From a virus: a stretch of 26,151 nucleotides of DNA. The first letter of the stretch is position 1; every line of letters starts with the position of its first letter. This document shows, one piece after another, positions 5,485-16,356 of the stretch. The DNA lies in the IMG/VR virus record IMGVR_UViG_3300020205_001580, positions 1 to 26,151 of that record. One strand, given 5' to 3'. The notes under the pieces were generated by a model. It had not been told where the DNA came from. It made no database searches and saw only the letters and a list, made by a program, of their open reading frames with translations. Both the position numbers and the translations under genes were made by a program.

Positions 5485-8400
5485 GTGTCAGATATAAACT
5501 CCAATATACGGATTGAATTTGACACTGGCACGGCGCTTGCTCAGCTTCGTAATCTACAAGCGGGGCTTTCTAAATTCCATCAAACTTTAGCTGAAGGAAA
5601 TCTAGCTGCAGCAAATGCCCAAAAGGGTTTAACTGCAAGCATGATCCAGTCCATCAATGCTACTGGAAAATTTTCAGCAAGTCAAAAAACTGTAGCAACA
5701 AGTACTCAAGCATTTACAACTGCGCTTGAAAAAAATCAGTTAAGCATGAAGGAATATTTTAGATATTCCGCAGCAGCTGCTACAGCAAACACAAAGTTAT
5801 TAACAAAAGCCTTTGCAGCTGAGCGTGAAATTCTTAACCGTGCTCGTAGAGATAGAGTTAAAGCACTTCAGTCACAATATATTCAACTAAACGGTGCGAC
5901 AGGTGCTTTTGCTAAGACAATTCAAGTCATGCCAAAAAGCCTTGCAATGGTTAATGGAAAGTTTACTGAGCTTGGAACTAGAATTCAATATGCTGCTCAA
6001 AGGCAACAGTTCTTAAATCAGTTACTAAAACAAGGCTCCACTCAGCTTCTTAACTTTGGTAAGAATATGCAGTGGGCTGGTCGTCAGTTGATGGTTGGTC
6101 TAACGATGCCACTTGGAATGTTGGCGGGAGCTGCAGCAAAAGCATTTAGAGAATTAGAAAAAGAAACAGTAGCATTTAGACGTGTTTATGGAGACATGTT
6201 TACAAGCGATGCTGAGACAGATGCTGCTATTGAAAATATTAAAAAGATTGGTATGGAATATACTAAATTTGGTATTGCTGTAAAAGATACAATGAACATG
6301 GCAGCAAGTGCTGCAGCAGCAGGTTTTTCTGGAACAGCATTAGAAAATCAAGTTAAACAAGCAAATAAGCTTTCAGTACTTGGTCAGATTGATCAACAAA
6401 AAGCACTTGAAACAACTATCTCTTTACAGAACGCCTTTGGTATTTCATCTGACGAACTAGCAAAGAAGATTAACTTTCTTAACGCAGTAGAAAACCAAAC
6501 AGTTGTATCTCTTGATGACATCACAACCGCAATTCCAAAAGTAGCACCAGTAATTAAACAACTTGGTGGATCAGTAGAAGACCTTGCGTTCTTCCTGACC
6601 GCAATGGAAGAAGGTGGAATAAACGCATCTGAAGGTGCTAACGCACTGAAGTCTGGTTTAGCAGCTTTAATTAATCCAGGGGATAAAGCAACAGCAATGC
6701 TTGCTGGCCTAGGAATTAATATTAAGGGTATTGTTGAAGGAAACGCAGGAGATCTTAAAGGAACAGTAGTTGGCTTTGCTCGTGCACTTGATACACTTGC
6801 TCCACTTCAAAGAGCAAGAGCCATTGAGCAGCTATTTGGAAAATTCCAATTTGCTCGTCTATCTACACTATTTCAAAACGTAACAAAGGATGGATCTCAA
6901 GCAAGTAGAACATTGCAGTTAGCAGGAGCATCTGTTGAAGAGCTTTCAATTTTGTCACAACGAGAAATGAGCAAGGTTGAAGATTCAGTAGGGGTAAAAT
7001 TCCAAAAAGCAATTGAGCAATTCAAAGTTACATTAATGCCAATTGGAAAACAATTCTTAGAAGCAGTTACACCTGTTGTTGAATTTTTTGGAAAGATGCT
7101 TGAAAAGTTTAATGGCTTGGGAGATGGAACTAAAAAGGTTATTGGTATTTTAGTTGCTGCTTTAGGTTTTATTGGCCCAGCTGCTTTGATGGCATTTGGT
7201 TTGCTTGCTAACGGTGCAGCAAACGTAATTAAGTTTTTTGCTATGCTTCGTGGTGGAATTGCAAAATTAAATGGACAAACAAATGTTCTTGGTGCTGGAT
7301 TTGACTATTTGACACAACAAGAAACTGAAAACCTTGCACAATCAAATGCTCTCCACACTTCTCATCAAAGATTAATCTCAGTCTTTAATGTAGAAAAAGG
7401 TTCTTTAGACTCTTTAGCATCTTCATATGCCAATGCAGCAACACAGGCTAGAAGCCTTGCTACAAGCTCTCCAGGACTGTTTGCAGCCCCTGGCGCAGCT
7501 TCAGCGGTAAGTAAGCTACCTAAGACTAGAAAGTACGCAGATGGTGTTTTATCCGTTCCAGGCCCAAAGGGTGCGGGAGACATTCAGCCAGCAATGCTAT
7601 CCCCAGGCGAGTCGGTAATTCCAACAAAGCAGTCTCAAAAGCATCGTGGCTTAATTAAAGCAATTATGGCAGATAACATTCCAGGTCATATTAAAGGAAG
7701 ACTAGGATCATCAGCAAAAAATTCTAAAGTTGATCAATCAAAAGCTTTGCTTAATTCATCTGGAAGACTTGCATCTAATACTTTAATTAGAAATCTAACT
7801 CCACAACAAAAAGAAGCGTATGATAAAACAACAAAAACATTAAGAACTTATAGTGATGACAAAGACGCAAACTTGGCAATTGATAATGCTCTAAAGGCGG
7901 GAGTTCCAAAACAATTATTAGGAAAATCTTTAATAAAACTATGGAAAGATGGTTATTATCCTATAACCAGTCTTAAAAAATATAATTCTTTAACTAAATC
8001 TTTAGCTACAAAAGAGTCTGGAACTTTCTTCAGAGGAACAGGAGTGTCTGGTAAGCAATATTTGCAGAACAAGATGGGAGGCTTACCACCAGAAATATCT
8101 GGTGAAATTTATCAAATTTTAAAAACTTTAAAAGGTGCTGACCAAGCCCAAGCATTAAGTAAATTTGTTGGAAAACCATTTAAGATGCGAACATCTTCTT
8201 GGAGCACTGAGGAATCTATTGCAGGAGGCTTTGCAAAAAATACAAGAGAACGAGCAGTAAGTAAAAAAGATGTTGTGCCATTTACAATTAAAACATCTTT
8301 TAAGGACCAAGATGTAATTCCAGTACACTCGCTATTTAAAAATATGTATAGTCAAAAAGGTGTTCCAGAATCTGAACGAATGTTTGGTGGTAATTTTGTA

Positions 8401-11400
8401 ATAACTGGAATTAATTCTAAGGGTGTGACTGTTGAAAGAGTTGCTGGATTTGAAAAAGGCACATTCTCAGTTCCAGGATCAAAGGGTGCAGGAGATGTTA
8501 CACCAGCAATGCTTTCCCCAGGTGAATCAGTTATTCCAACCAAGCAATCTGAAAAACATCGTGGTTTGATTAAAAGTATTATATCGGATAACATTCCAGG
8601 ACATATGGCTGGAAGAATTGGCAAGATAAAACCACAGTCTTCACGAGAGCCACTATTCCTTGGAATGCCAAAGACACTTAAAGAAACCAATATTAGAATA
8701 GCAAATCAAAAAATGTTGGACGACATAGATCGTTCAATTAGAAATGGTCCATTAGGAGCATTAGAGCCTTCAAACTTTGGAAAGCTAGTTACAGAAACAA
8801 CAGGTCACAGCTTCCCAATTCCAGGTGTTGGCGGTATTTACGAAAAGGGTGGCAAGCAACTATTTGTTAAACCAGTAACAGATATTGATGCTGCCAGAGC
8901 AGAATTGTTATCAACATCAGCATTTACTCCTGCTCATAACCTAATTGCACCAAAACAAGAATTAAGAACAATGTTAGATCCAACAGATCCAAAAGGAAAA
9001 AGAAGAATAGCAGTTCTTGTATCTCCTTATGATGCTAAGTTTGCAAATCCAGATGGTAAATTTACTCAACAACAAATGGCTGATCAGCTTTATGCTTCAT
9101 CTTTAAGAGGTGATAAAGATTTACAGACAGCAAATGTTTCTGGCAATATGGTTATTGATGCAGGAACTTCGTATGCGTATGACAAGGCTTCAGGATTAAG
9201 AACACAATCAGATTCTCTTAAGTCAGTATTAGAACAAGCGCATATAAATACACTTGGAGTTAAAGGTGGTGCCAGAAGAGCGTTTGCAGATGCTGTTTCA
9301 CCAATAGCACAAAAAATGACGGCAGATGAATTCCATATTCTTATGTCTGGCACTGTAACAGCTCATAATGCAAGACTGGCACAAACTTTAGCAACAACTA
9401 AATTAACTGCAGCAGAAAAAGAATTTTATGCTAAAAATATTTTAGCTAGAGGTAAAGAGGCTGAAGACATTGATTGGAGACAAATTCACGCTAACCTTGT
9501 TAATCTTGAAGCTGCTCCTAAAAAGAAAGAGCTTACCGCTGCAGCAATAGCTAAGAAATTTGAAGAGCAACTATTAAAAAAGCGTCAATCAGGACATGCC
9601 AATGAAGACTTCTACGTTCAACCTTTTGATGATGGAACTGGTGGAGTTGGAAAATCAAAAGCATCTTTAGATAGAATTAAAGCTTTACCAATAATTGATA
9701 GTCAAAGCCAACAAGAACAGCATAGAATTTTTCAATGGGCTGAAGATCAAATGTCTGGTCCTGACATTAGACCTGAAGCAAAAGCAAAATGGGAAAAAAG
9801 TAAGGTTAAGTGGAAAGAAAGTATTGCTAAGTACCTTACCTATGATCCAGCAACAGGACTTTACTACACAGGTAAAGAAGGAGAACGTGGCACACCTAGA
9901 GAGCATCTTGAAAAAGCATTAAGGTATAACTTAGGAATTGATCCAGCAACAACACCAAAAAGAAAAGGCCAATTTGCAAGCCTAAGTGATACAGCCACAG
10001 GAAGTCATGCTTTAGAAAAAATATCAATTGGTGGGGCAACAAAAGGTGGCGGTGGAGTTGCTACTAATAACCCAGGAGCAAAAGCACTACTCGATGAAAT
10101 TAGATTAGAAACTGAAGCTAGAAATAAAGCACTAGGCGCAAGTGGAGAAACTACCAAGATAACAGAATATTTAAAATCAAAATATCCAGATGCTACTGCT
10201 GGTCAGATAAACAGAATTTTACAGTTAGAAGCTGCACATATTGAGCCAGGTAAAGCTGCACAAGGAGAACAGTCAATAGCAAGAAGTAAAGATAAATGGA
10301 TTAATGGTCAAGCATGGGATGACTTTGGTGGCGTAAATCAGTACATGCTAAATGATAAAAAGCACCAAAGAATTCTTGACTGGGATAAATCTTTTGCAGA
10401 AAGCCCATTAGGATTAAATGATAAAAGAAGATCTGAGTATCAAAAAGCAGCTGACTTTATGGCTTCAGGAAGACACCCTTCAACTGCGGAAGAAGCAAAG
10501 CTAGTAAGGGATGCAGCACAACTTGAATTATTAGCCATTGAAGCAGAGGAAAAAAGCAAAAAAGAAACTGGGAAAAAACCAAAAGGATTTAGCAAGTACA
10601 AGTTAAACCTTAATAAATTATCAGCAGACGCAGCAAGATTTATTCTTGATGGAAGATTAGGACCAAACTCTAGTTTCTATGACGATCTATTAACACAAAA
10701 AAAGATAGTCAACTTAGATACAAACACTAGAACTGGTCAAATTTCTGTTGGTAAGGGAGAAGGAATAATTCCTGCAGACACTAAGCCAGGATCTAAGGTT
10801 AAGCCTAAAAAAGTAACAGGACAAAACTCAACTCCTAGACCTTTTGGATCAACCACAACTGGTCCATCTGGTGAAAGAGTTCCTAAAAACCCTGGATTAG
10901 TTGCTTCACGACAAACAATGAGGTTTATTGGAAAAGATAAGGGAGATTTAACATTTAGAAATGATCCCACATATAGCCCAGCATTTACTGAAGCATCTGA
11001 TTTAAGTAAAAACTCTCAAAGAAATGTTAATAAACTTGTTAATGAACACATTGCTAATCTAAAGAAAACAAACACCTTAAGTAAAGATGACATTAGAGCT
11101 AAAGCTGATAACTACAGAAGATATCTTATAGCAGATAGATTAGAAAAAGCTAATCAAGCAGAGTATGCTAAGACTGCACCAGCCCGTGCAAAATTAGCAG
11201 CACAGAGTCTTAAAAAAGAACAGGCTAATGCTCGTAAAGAAAGAGTTGGAAGGTTTTCTGGAGGTGCATCAGCTGCCGTTGGTGGCTTAGGTATGGCTGC
11301 AATGATGGGTGGTGCAGATCAAAAGGTGACAACTGGACTGTTTGCAGCATCAGCAGTTGCTGGCTTGGCCCCAATGCTTATGAATCCATATGTAGCTGCT

Positions 11401-14400
11401 GGAGCAGCAGTATTAGCAGTTGCTGGATCTTTCTGGTATGCAAACAAAAAAATAAAAGAAGCTGCAGAAAATCAATCTAGATTTGTTGATTTAACAAGAG
11501 CCACAACAGAAAAGATGAAAACCATTGGCGAAATGAATCAAAAAGTCGGCGCAGCTGAGATTATGGCTGCAAAAAGAAAAGCTGGTACTGCAAACCGTTA
11601 CACTGAAGGTTTTGACAGAGGTAAGCAACAGTACGGTGCAACTTTTCTTGGGACTGATCCAGGTAAAGAAATGCAAGACACTTTTTCAAAGCAACTTGCT
11701 AAAGGAGGAGATCAGGCCATTAAGCAAATGGCACTAAACCTTGGAACTTATGTTTCAGATGGTATTATGTCTGCACAGCAAGCATACAGTATTGCACAAC
11801 AAATTGGTCAAGACATGGGAAATTTAACAATTAGCTCTCAAATAACTGGAGAACTAATAAGTTTAATTGGCCCAGATGGAAAAGACATTTTAACTAATCC
11901 TATAGGTGTAAGAGTTAAGATTGTACAAGACTCAAGAGCACAAAGCCAACCTACAAGAGAAACTCTTGAAAAAAGCCCTACTTCGACATGGTCTATTTCC
12001 GACATTCCAATGGGAGAAACATCAACAAAACAAACAAGGGACTTGTCAGCAGCCTTAGCAGCATCAAATGTTCAAGACTTAGAGTTAGCACAAGCAGTAC
12101 AAGACTCTTTAGAGTTACAGTTAACAAAAGAAATTGAAAAATTAAAAGTTCAAAAAGCAGCAACTACAGATAAAGAAAAACAAGCAAAGATTGAAGACAA
12201 GATTGTTAAAAAAGAAGAGCAAAGATTAGATGGCCAAAAAAAATTAAAAGGAGAGTTAACAGCCATCTTAAAACAGCAGGCAGCAGACTACAAGCTAGCT
12301 CAAAAAAAGAAATCTGAAGCTGAATATTTAACTTCTTTAGAAACACAAATTACTGAAAAATATAAAGATGACCCTGTACAAAAGAATTTTTTAAGCACAC
12401 TTTCTGCCAATACAAATAAGGTTGCAGATAGAACAGTTAGAATAAAAGTTCAAGCTTTAGTTGCAGCTGGATTTTTAGAACCATCACAAATGTCTAGCTT
12501 GTTAGATTTGTACAGTGGTGACGATGCCGCCTTAAACACTCAGCTCAACTTGGCTGTAAGAACAACCGACAGTGGAGTTTTGAAAGAGGTTATCGGATTT
12601 GTAACTAGTTTAGATAATAAAGATTATATTAAAAAAGCTTTGTTTGAAAAGGTAATTGCTGGAGATTCTGTTGAGTTGATGTCTACTCTTAACTCTTTGG
12701 CAAAGTTAAATAATAAAGAGGTAAGCGTTAAAACATTTTTTGAAGATCCAAAGGCTTTAGAAAACTTAGATCTACTACAGGGCAAACTTAGCAAGATTAA
12801 AGAAATTGATTCTCCTATTACTGCAAAAGTTTTAGCAGAAACAGAACAAATAGGTGACATCAAGCTTGGCCCATTAGCGGATATATTTAAAAAATGGGAA
12901 GGCCTCGATCCAAAAATTACAAGAACAATTGTTGCACAATATGTAACTATTGCCTCTTTAATCGGTACCCCCGAAGCAATTGCTAGCTTAAAGGCACGGG
13001 GAGTATTAGCTCCGCTTGGTCCAAATGGTGAAAACTATACCCCCACACAGATTGAGGCAGAGAAAGGAAGAATGGCTGCCGAATTTACACCGCAGGCGGT
13101 TGCAGCAATGATAGCAGCCAATACTCCTAAAAATCTAGGCGATGGCGATGGCAATAAAACTACAAGAACTTATTCTGAAATTAATGACTTATTAAAACAA
13201 ATTAAATTCTTAAGAGATGCATCTGTTAATGCTGAAGGCAAACTTAAAGAATTAGCAAATGTTACAGCTGGTAAAGGAATAACTAAAATTACTGGTGTTA
13301 TTCAACAGTTAATGAAGGGTCCAAAAGGCGGATACAATAGAGACTTTATCTCATGGCTAGAGAGTATGGATGAGGCTACACGCAAAACCTACATGTCTGT
13401 AAATAAAGCTGGAAAAGTTATATTAAGTACTGAAGGTAAACAGGCAAAAGAGTTATTCAATGAAGCTTCATTTGGAAGAGCGTATAATAGAGAAAACACA
13501 GTTGCTCAAGATAGTCTTGCCCAAGCAGCTGCTCTTGTTAAATTAAAAACAGCTGGGTTTGACACAGCAAAAGCCTTAGAATTAGTTGCAGATGCATCGT
13601 TTGCGGTATCTGTTAACTCTGGAAACATTACTCCAGAGGAACTAAAACTTCTTAAAGAAGAAGCTATAAGAGCAAAGAAAGAAGTAGCAGCGCTTGCTCT
13701 AGAACTTAAGACAGCTGCAGAAGGATCACAGCAAGGCTTAACCGATATAACACAAAAACTTAGAATTTTGTCTGGACTAAAAGACAGGTACAAACTAACC
13801 TCTGATCAAAGAGAAGCCATTGTGTCACAAAGTAAGGGAACTCTAGATTCTCTTGAAGGCTACCTTGCTGGGAAAATTACGGGACCAGCAGGGGATGCAA
13901 TTAAAAAAGATTTAGAAAAAATTCTAAACAGTGTTCATCCTATCCTTGATGGCACCCTTAATCTTAAGGTGCAAGTTGATGGACTTCAGGCAGCAAGAGA
14001 TGCGTTCTCAGATATTCAGAATAGGTTTAATGATTTCTTTAATGCTAAAAGATCTTTAGTTGCATCAAAATATAGAAAAGATCTAAATGCAGCACAAGAC
14101 AAGTTAGACCCTAATGTAAAAGGATCGGCTGGAGCAAATGCTAAAGCAGCACAAGACGAGCTTACCGCTGCTCAAAAAGCAGTAGATGCAGCCAATAGAG
14201 CCAATGATAAAAAAATCAAAACTATAAATGATAATGCTGAAAAAGAACTTCGTGTTTTAGAAAAAACAGTTAAAGAAAAGAAAGCTGCTTTAGATAAAGC
14301 AAATAAAGACTTAAAAGATGCCGAAGACAAAGCAAACATCGAGCAAGATAGATATAACGTACAAATGGAATATGATAGTTATTTTGCAGCAGATGGAACT

Positions 14401-16356
14401 GTCAACGATGGTTTTACTAAAAATGCTAAAACTGGTGTAACTAATCCCCGTTCTATTGAATTTTTACAAAGAAATATTGATACTAATCAAAGAGAATTAG
14501 AAGAAAAGGTCAATAGACCTTTGGAAGATGCTCAAAGATCTCTAGCTGACTTTGAACGCAAGATGCAAAAAACATATACCGATAGAATTGACGCATTGCA
14601 AGAAACCTCATCTGCATATTCCGATGACCTAACACTTATTGATCACGCAGCAGAGGCAATTAATAAAAAATATGATCTTCAAGAAGAAGCACTTAATAAA
14701 ATTTCTGCAATTAATGATCAAATTATTTCACAACAAAAAGATCAGCTAGACCTTGCTAGTGCAATTAGTTCTGGAGACATAGGCGCAGCAGCAAAAGCAA
14801 TGCAGCAGATTCAAGCATCCCGTGTTTCTGGTATGGCAAAGACACAACAGGATGCTCTAACTGCATCAAGAGAGTCTGAGATTTCTGGGTTAACATCACG
14901 TGGTTTAACTAGAGAGCAAATTGAAGAAAAACAATGGAATATATCAAGAGAAATTATTCAAATAGAAAAAGACTCTTTACCTTTACAAGAAAATATTGAA
15001 ATCATAAAAGAACGAATTTATGAGCTAGAACAAAAAAGAGAAAACTATTTAAAAGGAATACAAATCCTTGAAGATGAAATTTATGCAAAGACATTAGCAC
15101 GACAAGTTGCACTTGATGCAATTACAAAAAAAGAAATTGCATTAAAACCATTACAAGATGCTGCAAAGGCTGCTCAAGAAGATTACGACGATGCCGAGGA
15201 AAATTATAATGATGTTGTAAAGGCTAGAGATGAAGCTTTAAGGGCTTTAGAAATAGCACATACTGATGCTATGGTCGATCTTGAGACTAGACTTACTGCT
15301 GCTGAAGATGCATTGATCATTGCCAATGACGCACTTGCTGCTGCTCAAGCAGCAGTTGATGAAATACAAGGCAAGATAGATGAAGAACTTGGTAAAATTA
15401 CAGAGCTGGAAGATAAATTCTTGGCAGTTCAAGATGCAATTTTTGGCATGACTTCAAACCTGTTTGACTTTACAACTGAGTTAGAAGCTGCTCTTGTAGC
15501 AGCAGAAAATCTTGCAGCTCAGTTAGCCAAAGATGCACAAGAAAAGAAAGATTTAAACGATGCTGCCCCTGGGTTAGCAAAAGACAAATATACTGCTGCC
15601 TTAAAAGCAGAAAAAGATTTCTCTGATTCAGTCGGCAGAACTACGGCATTTATTAAAAGCCTTCAAGACAAGGTTTTAGACGGAGTTACTCTAAGCTATG
15701 AAGAATTTTATGGTCTAGAGAGAGCCATGAAAGAACTTCCAGGATTACTTTCTAAGCTACAAGACCTGCAGCGTGATACTGCTGAAGCTCAAGAAGCATA
15801 TTATCAAATACTGCTTAAAAACCCCGCAACTAAAAAAGATGCACTAAGGTTTAGATTGCAGACAGACAAAGCATTTGCACTTAGCCCTGAAGGAATGCAG
15901 GCTGCAAGAGATTTAGATGCCGAAGATAAGAAACCAGTTGTACCTCCTGTAGTACCTATGACCCCAGCCGAGCTTAAAGAAAGAATTGCTAAATGGAGAA
16001 AAAACAATCCTTGGGCAGCCTCAATCCCAGATTCAGCAATTCCAAATATGCTAGGCTTCTCTTCAGGAGGAATGGTTCTCAAGTATATGGCTCAGGGTGG
16101 CTTTACTCGTGGATCAGACATAGTTCCAGCTATGCTTACCCCAGGAGAGTTTGTAATGAGCAGATATGCCGTTTCTACCCATGGTGTAGATAAAATGAAA
16201 GCCATGAATAACGGAGATTCAATTGGCGACGCAGTGTATAATTATAGTGTAAACGTAAATGTTAAATCTGATGCTAACCCAGATGAAATTGCAAGAGCAG
16301 TAATGATGCAAATCAAGCAAGTTGATGGTCAGAAAATTAGGGGGAATAGATTCTAA
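5485..16356 (+). CDS. Giant tape measure protein with embedded enzyme-like domains
   Basis: This is a 3623-residue protein starting at GTG 5485; an in-frame TGA lies just upstream and AAGGCGG at 5467-5473 is the ribosome site. Tape measure proteins set tail length and are ejected with DNA, often touching the host membrane. Residues 1 to about 215 are helical; about 215-545 match the TP901-type core (FRELEKETVAFRRVYGDMF, then long Ala-rich helices). Hydrophobic segments lie at about 548-590 and 1926-1986. Between them are two copies of a repeat (687-741, 992-1046), ADP-ribosyltransferase motifs (770-985), a kinase-like domain (1097-1342), a possible HNH motif (1573-1640) and a low-complexity Pro/Thr/Gly linker (about 1750-1830). 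About 2000-2850 is mixed helical, about 2858-3445 is strong coiled coil, and 3538-3577 is a third, weaker repeat. Few tape measure proteins are this long. It ends in TAATG with the next gene. Confidence 0.96.
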   Translation: MSDINSNIRIEFDTGTALAQLRNLQAGLSKFHQTLAEGNLAAANAQKGLTASMIQSINATGKFSASQKTVATSTQAFTTALEKNQLSMKEYFRYSAAAATANTKLLTKAFAAEREILNRARRDRVKALQSQYIQLNGATGAFAKTIQVMPKSLAMVNGKFTELGTRIQYAAQRQQFLNQLLKQGSTQLLNFGKNMQWAGRQLMVGLTMPLGMLAGAAAKAFRELEKETVAFRRVYGDMFTSDAETDAAIENIKKIGMEYTKFGIAVKDTMNMAASAAAAGFSGTALENQVKQANKLSVLGQIDQQKALETTISLQNAFGISSDELAKKINFLNAVENQTVVSLDDITTAIPKVAPVIKQLGGSVEDLAFFLTAMEEGGINASEGANALKSGLAALINPGDKATAMLAGLGINIKGIVEGNAGDLKGTVVGFARALDTLAPLQRARAIEQLFGKFQFARLSTLFQNVTKDGSQASRTLQLAGASVEELSILSQREMSKVEDSVGVKFQKAIEQFKVTLMPIGKQFLEAVTPVVEFFGKMLEKFNGLGDGTKKVIGILVAALGFIGPAALMAFGLLANGAANVIKFFAMLRGGIAKLNGQTNVLGAGFDYLTQQETENLAQSNALHTSHQRLISVFNVEKGSLDSLASSYANAATQARSLATSSPGLFAAPGAASAVSKLPKTRKYADGVLSVPGPKGAGDIQPAMLSPGESVIPTKQSQKHRGLIKAIMADNIPGHIKGRLGSSAKNSKVDQSKALLNSSGRLASNTLIRNLTPQQKEAYDKTTKTLRTYSDDKDANLAIDNALKAGVPKQLLGKSLIKLWKDGYYPITSLKKYNSLTKSLATKESGTFFRGTGVSGKQYLQNKMGGLPPEISGEIYQILKTLKGADQAQALSKFVGKPFKMRTSSWSTEESIAGGFAKNTRERAVSKKDVVPFTIKTSFKDQDVIPVHSLFKNMYSQKGVPESERMFGGNFVITGINSKGVTVERVAGFEKGTFSVPGSKGAGDVTPAMLSPGESVIPTKQSEKHRGLIKSIISDNIPGHMAGRIGKIKPQSSREPLFLGMPKTLKETNIRIANQKMLDDIDRSIRNGPLGALEPSNFGKLVTETTGHSFPIPGVGGIYEKGGKQLFVKPVTDIDAARAELLSTSAFTPAHNLIAPKQELRTMLDPTDPKGKRRIAVLVSPYDAKFANPDGKFTQQQMADQLYASSLRGDKDLQTANVSGNMVIDAGTSYAYDKASGLRTQSDSLKSVLEQAHINTLGVKGGARRAFADAVSPIAQKMTADEFHILMSGTVTAHNARLAQTLATTKLTAAEKEFYAKNILARGKEAEDIDWRQIHANLVNLEAAPKKKELTAAAIAKKFEEQLLKKRQSGHANEDFYVQPFDDGTGGVGKSKASLDRIKALPIIDSQSQQEQHRIFQWAEDQMSGPDIRPEAKAKWEKSKVKWKESIAKYLTYDPATGLYYTGKEGERGTPREHLEKALRYNLGIDPATTPKRKGQFASLSDTATGSHALEKISIGGATKGGGGVATNNPGAKALLDEIRLETEARNKALGASGETTKITEYLKSKYPDATAGQINRILQLEAAHIEPGKAAQGEQSIARSKDKWINGQAWDDFGGVNQYMLNDKKHQRILDWDKSFAESPLGLNDKRRSEYQKAADFMASGRHPSTAEEAKLVRDAAQLELLAIEAEEKSKKETGKKPKGFSKYKLNLNKLSADAARFILDGRLGPNSSFYDDLLTQKKIVNLDTNTRTGQISVGKGEGIIPADTKPGSKVKPKKVTGQNSTPRPFGSTTTGPSGERVPKNPGLVASRQTMRFIGKDKGDLTFRNDPTYSPAFTEASDLSKNSQRNVNKLVNEHIANLKKTNTLSKDDIRAKADNYRRYLIADRLEKANQAEYAKTAPARAKLAAQSLKKEQANARKERVGRFSGGASAAVGGLGMAAMMGGADQKVTTGLFAASAVAGLAPMLMNPYVAAGAAVLAVAGSFWYANKKIKEAAENQSRFVDLTRATTEKMKTIGEMNQKVGAAEIMAAKRKAGTANRYTEGFDRGKQQYGATFLGTDPGKEMQDTFSKQLAKGGDQAIKQMALNLGTYVSDGIMSAQQAYSIAQQIGQDMGNLTISSQITGELISLIGPDGKDILTNPIGVRVKIVQDSRAQSQPTRETLEKSPTSTWSISDIPMGETSTKQTRDLSAALAASNVQDLELAQAVQDSLELQLTKEIEKLKVQKAATTDKEKQAKIEDKIVKKEEQRLDGQKKLKGELTAILKQQAADYKLAQKKKSEAEYLTSLETQITEKYKDDPVQKNFLSTLSANTNKVADRTVRIKVQALVAAGFLEPSQMSSLLDLYSGDDAALNTQLNLAVRTTDSGVLKEVIGFVTSLDNKDYIKKALFEKVIAGDSVELMSTLNSLAKLNNKEVSVKTFFEDPKALENLDLLQGKLSKIKEIDSPITAKVLAETEQIGDIKLGPLADIFKKWEGLDPKITRTIVAQYVTIASLIGTPEAIASLKARGVLAPLGPNGENYTPTQIEAEKGRMAAEFTPQAVAAMIAANTPKNLGDGDGNKTTRTYSEINDLLKQIKFLRDASVNAEGKLKELANVTAGKGITKITGVIQQLMKGPKGGYNRDFISWLESMDEATRKTYMSVNKAGKVILSTEGKQAKELFNEASFGRAYNRENTVAQDSLAQAAALVKLKTAGFDTAKALELVADASFAVSVNSGNITPEELKLLKEEAIRAKKEVAALALELKTAAEGSQQGLTDITQKLRILSGLKDRYKLTSDQREAIVSQSKGTLDSLEGYLAGKITGPAGDAIKKDLEKILNSVHPILDGTLNLKVQVDGLQAARDAFSDIQNRFNDFFNAKRSLVASKYRKDLNAAQDKLDPNVKGSAGANAKAAQDELTAAQKAVDAANRANDKKIKTINDNAEKELRVLEKTVKEKKAALDKANKDLKDAEDKANIEQDRYNVQMEYDSYFAADGTVNDGFTKNAKTGVTNPRSIEFLQRNIDTNQRELEEKVNRPLEDAQRSLADFERKMQKTYTDRIDALQETSSAYSDDLTLIDHAAEAINKKYDLQEEALNKISAINDQIISQQKDQLDLASAISSGDIGAAAKAMQQIQASRVSGMAKTQQDALTASRESEISGLTSRGLTREQIEEKQWNISREIIQIEKDSLPLQENIEIIKERIYELEQKRENYLKGIQILEDEIYAKTLARQVALDAITKKEIALKPLQDAAKAAQEDYDDAEENYNDVVKARDEALRALEIAHTDAMVDLETRLTAAEDALIIANDALAAAQAAVDEIQGKIDEELGKITELEDKFLAVQDAIFGMTSNLFDFTTELEAALVAAENLAAQLAKDAQEKKDLNDAAPGLAKDKYTAALKAEKDFSDSVGRTTAFIKSLQDKVLDGVTLSYEEFYGLERAMKELPGLLSKLQDLQRDTAEAQEAYYQILLKNPATKKDALRFRLQTDKAFALSPEGMQAARDLDAEDKKPVVPPVVPMTPAELKERIAKWRKNNPWAASIPDSAIPNMLGFSSGGMVLKYMAQGGFTRGSDIVPAMLTPGEFVMSRYAVSTHGVDKMKAMNNGDSIGDAVYNYSVNVNVKSDANPDEIARAVMMQIKQVDGQKIRGNRF
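7543..7707 (+). repeat. Tape measure module repeat, copy 1 (residues 687-741)
   Basis: This 55-residue module has the core GAGD..PAMLSPGESVIPTKQS followed by KHRGLIK and DNIPGH, ending GRLG. Copy 2 (8458-8622) matches it at 43 of 55 residues by direct comparison. PAML[ST]PGE motifs recur near the C-termini of many phage tape measure proteins; the function is unknown to me. Here it marks the start of the inserted enzyme region. Confidence 0.9.
7792..8439 (+). other. Predicted ADP-ribosyltransferase domain inside the tape measure protein (residues about 770-985)
   Basis: The three signatures of the R-S-E class of NAD-dependent ADP-ribosyltransferases occur in the right order and spacing. The first is an Arg after an aromatic pair, FFRGTG, at R850. 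The second is a Ser-Thr segment, SSWSTEESIAGGFA, at 904-917, with S907 the likely key Ser. The third is an ExE pair, PESERMFGGNFVI, at E962 and E964. ExE is typical of members that modify Arg or similar acceptors. Known phage relatives in function are T4 Alt, which is injected with DNA, and ModA/ModB, which modify host RNA polymerase and other proteins. The domain sits between two near-identical repeats, in frame with the tape measure gene, with no separate start. The target is unknown. The fold call rests on motifs only. Confidence 0.72.
8458..8622 (+). repeat. Tape measure module repeat, copy 2 (residues 992-1046)
   Basis: This is the second copy of the GAGD..PAMLSPGESVIPTKQS / KHRGLIK / DNIPGH module, 43 of 55 residues identical to copy 1. 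Differences are mostly conservative (I/V, A/S, M/I, L/I). It directly follows the ADP-ribosyltransferase-like domain and precedes the kinase-like one, so copies 1 and 2 bracket a single enzyme unit. Confidence 0.9.
8773..9510 (+). other. Predicted kinase-like domain (HipA / phosphoinositide-kinase-like) inside the tape measure protein (residues about 1097-1342)
   Basis: The segment carries kinase landmarks in order. There is a glycine-rich start GVGGIYEKGGKQLFVKP with K1129 in the position of the ATP-binding lysine, an AARAELL helix with E1140 as partner, and a strand region RIAVLVSPYDAKF. A catalytic stretch GDKDLQTANVSGNMVIDAG follows, with D1210, N1217 and D1225 matching the D....N and D.G metal-binding pattern of HipA and phosphoinositide-type kinases. 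A helical segment follows as expected for a C-lobe. The substrate could be protein, lipid or nucleotide-related. It directly follows repeat copy 2. This is motif recognition without a structural comparison; a degenerate pseudokinase is possible. Confidence 0.5.
10201..10404 (+). other. Possible HNH-type nuclease motif inside the tape measure protein (residues about 1573-1640)
   Basis: LEAAHIEPG (H1585) followed 33 residues later by GGVNQYML (N1618) and KKHQRI (H1627) reproduces the H...N...H order of HNH and related beta-beta-alpha metal nucleases, in which an AH[HI].P stretch precedes a GG..N and a final His. The usual zinc-binding Cys pairs are missing, and AHI stands where many families have AHH or HHI. 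The surroundings (residues about 1400-1570 and 1640-1750) are not recognised. It may be a nuclease, a decayed one or a coincidence. Confidence 0.35.
16096..16215 (+). repeat. Degenerate third copy of the PAML.PGE module near the tape measure C-terminus (residues 3538-3577)
   Basis: GGFTRGSDIVPAMLTPGEFV keeps the core of the two upstream modules (G.F, GSD for GAGD, PAML, PGE, V) but then diverges (HGVDKMKAMNNG where the others have KHRGLIK). This C-terminal form is the one commonly seen in tape measure proteins, so it is probably ancestral and the two internal copies derived. Confidence 0.75.

Follow-up and report, generated by a model that had tools for sequence, protein, structure and literature searches.

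Introduction

The closest described counterparts of the element reported here are ADP-ribosyltransferases (ARTs) that phages carry in their virions. Alt of phage T4, a member of the Alt/VIP2 clade, is an injected R-S-E ART that the virion carries and that acts as infection begins (PMC5512222, PMC9503650). Other ARTs are joined to a virion protein, as in the MuF (SPP1 gp7-like) fusions of Porphyromonas phage 005b, PSS2 and S-2L, and in the MuF-VIP2 fusions of Microbacterium phages (PMC7302621); ARTs that are packaged in the head are believed to be injected (PMC9503650). Here we describe a cassette with the motifs of an R-S-E ART in the tail tape measure gene of a virus, IMG/VR record IMGVR_UViG_3300020205_001580, of which the whole stretch analysed (positions 1 to 26,151; 26,151 nucleotides) is referred to as the window.

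Nicotinamide adenine dinucleotide (NAD)-ADP-ribose systems are rarer in siphophages than in myoviruses, with 16% of the former and 60% of the latter (PMC9503650). Some siphophage tape measures are released into the envelope, where they may form a DNA channel (PMC6116005, PMC11445458), and those of TM4, T5 and phiIPLA35 contain muralytic domains (PMC6116005). Many interchangeable effector-type domains on one virion-associated polypeptide are known from the phage polyvalent proteins (Iyer et al. 2017, PMC5512222), whose ARTs belong for the most part to the H-Y-D type; genuine polyvalent proteins are stated to be free of Alt/VIP2 R-S-E ARTs (PMC5512222). Tape measures came under suspicion in a survey of mosaic phage proteins, in which no recent case could be confirmed (PMC10684548).

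Results

The tape measure gene lies at positions 5485-16356 on the plus strand, as do all its parts given below. It begins with GTG and encodes 3623 amino acids (aa) in a single open frame without internal stop. It matches TIGR01760 (E 2.6e-30), PF10145 (E 1.7e-27) and phrog_10030 (E 9.6e-92), and is a tape measure of the TP901/PhageMin_Tail type, having the N-terminal tape measure domain and being the largest gene of the tail operon, with minor tail protein genes downstream. Its ART-like domain (7750-8445, residues 756-987) consists of a helical N-terminal part followed by a core with R, S-W-S and E-x-E motifs, and stands between two copies of a linker, S-V-P-G-x-K-G-A-G-D-x-x-P-A-M-L-S-P-G-E..., which form its upstream border (linker 1, 7549-7713, about residues 689-743, SVPGPKGAGDIQPAMLSPGESVIPTKQSQKHRGLIKAIMADNIPGHIKGR) and its downstream border (linker 2, 8464-8628, about residues 994-1048, SVPGSKGAGDVTPAMLSPGESVIPTKQSEKHRGLIKSIISDNIPGHMAGR). 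With PAML at residues 702 and 1007, the cassette measures 305 aa from linker to linker, counted from PAMLSPGE to PAMLSPGE. An earlier note on this DNA, made from the letters alone, had recognized ART motifs inside a tape measure, which holds, and had overlooked the duplicated linkers on either side of the segment and its nature as a cassette that can be exchanged.

A close relative, L004, is 86% identical to the window across residues 2-743, has a single linker there and lacks the cassette; from residue 970 onward the window realigns with L004 residue 665. The 5' part of linker 1 is closer to the L004 linker than linker 2 is, while in the 3' part it is linker 2 that is closer, a pattern that fits a cassette inserted by recombination within a linker.

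Two further IMG/VR contigs carry the cassette, L002/L003 (81% identical to the window) and L178 (64%), the latter located with a degenerate DNA pattern of the active site. These carrier searches used short exact peptide or DNA patterns, and more divergent carriers may exist. In the tape measures of these contigs the cassette is placed elsewhere than in the window; in L002/L003 it sits after a kinase-motif domain and another linker. Alignment A4 comprises the cassettes of all three carriers, with 64-81% identity to the window copy, and in it R850, S904, W906, S907, E962 and E964 are invariant.

We compared the proportion of synonymous differences (pS) segment by segment. Between the window and L003, pS is 0.285 in the cassette, as against 0.627 in the tape measure N-terminus (0.535-0.675 in equal-sized sections), 0.608 in the kinase-motif domain, 0.70-0.72 in two other tail-region genes and 0.487 in a capsid-type gene with 87% amino-acid identity. 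The comparison with L178 gives 0.34 for the cassette, 0.64 for the N-terminus and 0.615 for the kinase-motif domain. Since its pS is far lower, the cassette is younger in these genomes than the neighbouring genes, and it has been exchanged horizontally between the three phages. No real match to it turned up among INPHARED phages or plasmids, a search of 396 genomes from one bacterial phylum gave two weak matches, both non-ART, and an alignment-based scan of genome contigs gave nothing.

The earlier note had placed FFRGTG, SSWSTEES and PESERMF at positions 7792-8439 (residues 770-985) in one continuous frame of the tape measure, and all three are there. FFRGTG (8026-8043) starts at residue 848 and contains R850, which is invariant in the three tape measures and in alignment A6, a set of seven sequences made up of these three and four outside ARTs. 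The S motif, SSWSTEESIAGGFAKN (8194-8241), includes SSWSTEES from residue 904, with S905-W906-S907 as S-x-S. PESERMF (8365-8385) starts at residue 961, and both its Glu residues, E962 and E964, are invariant in A6. What had to be corrected is the motif serine, which had been given as S907: aligned with MuF-type ARTs, the first Ser is S905, and S907 takes the third position of S-x-[ST].

The bare three-motif observation has no significance on its own. A loose R-S-E pattern arises in 122 of 2000 shuffles of the tape measure protein (6%) and in 19 of 9490 real open reading frames (ORFs), near the 13.2 expected, and it was dropped as stand-alone evidence. Because R-S-E order is cheap in a protein so large, the motifs need independent support. 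A tight pattern, aromatic-RG...[SA]W[ST].[ED]..[IVSA][AS]..F...E.E, drawn up after the window had been seen, never turned up when 1.55 M residues were shuffled 20 times; among the real ORFs it picks out the window and L003 only.

Further support comes from outside the tape measures. The block SSWS.EE.IA..FA, with aromatic-RG upstream and E.E downstream, recurs in evident ARTs of the MuF and stand-alone types: L203, L201 and L197, which derive from Clostridia-type genomes, and L177 and L180. Two of these five have sub-threshold matches to PF03496/PF01129 (E 0.009-0.017), and the L203 homologues of Porphyromonas phage 005b and of the cyanophages PSS2 and S-2L are minor head proteins. In A6 the invariant positions are, besides R850 and the two Glu residues of E-x-E, G851, W906, E909, E910, A913, F916 and A917. 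The middle block was met in frame in 32 distinct cases, and in 7 of them an aromatic-RG lies 10-75 residues upstream, compared with 0.6% of random positions; one of the seven is the carrier L178, and the remaining six show no relationship to the gene of the window. With hhalign, the cassette scored 30.0 against a MuF-ART profile that included the motif-selected L203, the null maximum being 22.9 (150 segments). E-values obtained with motif-selected relatives were left out of the evidence, since the selection inflates them.

Two observations concern the MuF-type proteins themselves. L177 (8941-11877, minus strand) and L184 (1213-4149, minus strand) encode a 979-aa head protein in which Phage_Mu_F is fused to bacterial topoisomerase IB and, at the C-terminus, to an R-S-E ART-like domain. 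In L239 (Porphyromonas phage 005b; 1-1564 and 1852-2543) the MuF-ART gene is near an annotated ADP-ribosylglycohydrolase gene.

A number of results weigh against an injected ART. The profile search of the segment, which the earlier note had proposed as a check, yielded no match in Pfam, NCBIfam or the PDB. When L203 was left out, the hhalign score fell to 25.4, behind a null segment of L048 at 26.4 (itself ART-like on inspection), and a hidden Markov model (HMM) of four ARTs that were not motif-chosen gave the window 13.6 bits, below an unrelated gene of about 150 aa. Two AlphaFold2 runs, one with two sequences and the other with seven including the outside ARTs (and hence biased towards ART), reached a predicted local distance difference test (pLDDT) of 51.4 and 51.9, and nothing but the helices at the N-terminus is credible; both models are too poor to place R850, S905 and E964 or to reveal a fold, and Foldseek with these low-pLDDT models returned no usable match and no ART. 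S905 is replaced by Ala in L002, where W906 and S907 are kept. As to delivery, a folded domain within the tail lumen would be a tight fit.

A different explanation is a mobile module of the tape measure whose fold is unknown and whose R, S-W-S and E-x-E strings are coincidental, with a role as spacer in the tail or in penetrating the envelope. The 6% of shuffles with loose strings, the lack of a family or structure match, an ART-HMM score not above background and the poor structure models all agree with it. We nevertheless consider it unlikely, as the motif residues are kept in three carriers, the extended block with its upstream RG is strongly tied to ARTs, and the tight pattern never occurs in shuffles. 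What speaks for the R-S-E ART reading already made in the earlier note is the conserved R, S and E-x-E residues, the MuF-type active-site block and the mobility of the cassette, whereas no curated family profile matched it. We regard this reading of the cassette as likely.

Such a domain might also be a degenerate ART fold, retained for binding NAD or a protein and devoid of transfer activity. The Ala at the first Ser of S-x-S in L002 could be taken in that sense, as could a ratio of nonsynonymous to synonymous change (dN/dS) of 0.30-0.58, the mark of a constrained yet fast-evolving segment in which constraint is not strong. R850 and both Glu residues of E-x-E are, however, invariant in all carriers, and the window copy retains S905, so that loss of activity seems quite improbable.

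As we infer it, the cassette (about residues 745-990) would be an R-S-E mono-ADP-ribosyltransferase related to the MuF-fused phage ARTs, with arginine predicted as acceptor from its E-x-E. Being part of the tape measure, it would travel inside the tail tube and leave together with that protein as the genome enters, and its target would be a host protein that becomes ADP-ribosylated at an early stage of infection. It could act in the cytoplasm at entry, given that some siphophage tape measures are released and head-packaged ARTs are thought to be injected, and by this analogy host delivery via tape measure ejection is plausible. We put the probability of the whole explanation, an ART cassette delivered as an injected effector, at roughly 0.55.

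A real ART could instead act elsewhere, either in the envelope or, while virions are being assembled, on proteins of the phage or the host in the producing cell. The tape measure is made late, the enzymes known from tape measures target the cell wall (PMC6116005), and the ejected protein of JBD30 was proposed to be a membrane channel, not a cytoplasmic effector (PMC11445458). NAD, however, is cytoplasmic, so that a location outside makes little sense, and the nearest motif relatives are head-packaged MuF-type ARTs thought to be injected (PMC9503650), which makes action elsewhere improbable in our view.

The nearest named tape measures come mainly from Streptomyces and Gordonia phages (<30% identity among the matches listed), and because of this the siphovirus-like phage probably has an actinobacterium as host. 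A C-terminal PAMLTPGE motif (16126-16149, residues 3548-3555) is common to the related tape measures. A gene of about 150 aa upstream of the tape measure (516-971, with homologues; 'GKVYRGYNIV') was hit by an ART profile, and was considered as an ART and rejected because S and E motifs are absent and the Arg is not kept in the window copy.

Directly after the cassette follows the kinase-motif domain (8662-9486, residues 1060-1334), present in 95 of the family's 144 tape-measure ORFs, a count that includes overlapping loci. Its invariants in alignment A7 (22 sequences), the Lys of VKP, the Glu of AE, RGDKDL....N and D-x-G, resemble those of the protein-kinase fold. Pfam and PDB searches with this domain gave no significant match; a weak NCBIfam match to DarA (E 0.002) at about residues 1232-1297 overlaps the domain towards its C-terminal end, together with the stretch that comes right after.

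Other linker-bounded cassettes are found in the related tape measures, with domain assignments based on motifs only. A second R-S-E-like type lies near the C-terminus in L048 (about residues 3578-3800) and L067 (about residues 3722-3913), which keep the motifs YRGLS, KS[TF]TE.LDWAK and T.TE at only 33% mutual identity. A further type, marked by RPTYG[YF]A, RS[ST]A and YIET.TP.GF (residues 741-1010 in L065, 746-1005 in L056, 754-986 in L082 and 735-967 in L077) is possibly another R-S-E type, and has no Pfam match. In L030 (10708-13215) the cassette at the C-terminus contains an OmpA domain (E 1.1e-12) and weakly matches a reprolysin-like metallopeptidase, while a segment of L008 (about residues 3260-3500) resembles a GNAT acetyltransferase, as judged by eye only. 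Several more linker-bounded segments have no matches. In L056 a small gene upstream of the tape measure (969-1589) has a linker-like string (PATLQPGEPVIP), here outside the tape measure.

Discussion

By sequence, related tape measures carry a variety of cassettes with putative effector-type domains, and the tape measure of this family looks like a cassette-bearing protein, comparable to polyvalent proteins on a different chassis. Polyvalent domains in tape measures are not described in PMC5512222. More tentatively, in one large lineage of siphophages, uncultivated and probably actinobacterial, the tape measure may serve as a general delivery chassis: recombination at the PAMLSPGE linkers would swap several ART types, the kinase-like domain and others in and out, and these would be injected as a set of first-strike effectors.

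As a case of recent tape measure mosaicism, the cassette stands out by its cassette-free relative and by its low synonymous divergence next to diverged flanks. In TM4, T5 and phiIPLA35, as here, a domain of enzymatic type lies inside the tape measure; those domains cleave peptidoglycan, whereas the substrate of an NAD-using domain would be a cytoplasmic one. The cassette also offers a direct experimental handle on whether tape-measure segments reach the cytoplasm.

T4 Alt resembles the proposed use of the cassette in being on hand when infection starts, but it is a separate head-packaged protein, and no sequence match between it and the cassette was found. The MuF-fused ARTs are closer, sharing with the cassette the aromatic-RG, the S-W-[ST] block, a helix with A..F after the S block, and E-x-E (or x-x-E) before the last strands. 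The cassette differs from them in its chassis, a tail tape measure and not a head protein, in its longer R-to-S segment (57 residues versus about 27), and in its want of a significant profile score. What is new here is a probable virion-borne phage ART on a cassette-exchanging tape measure chassis: injection of ARTs from the head is already known, and a tape measure carrier, if confirmed, would be a second route, one open to siphophages.
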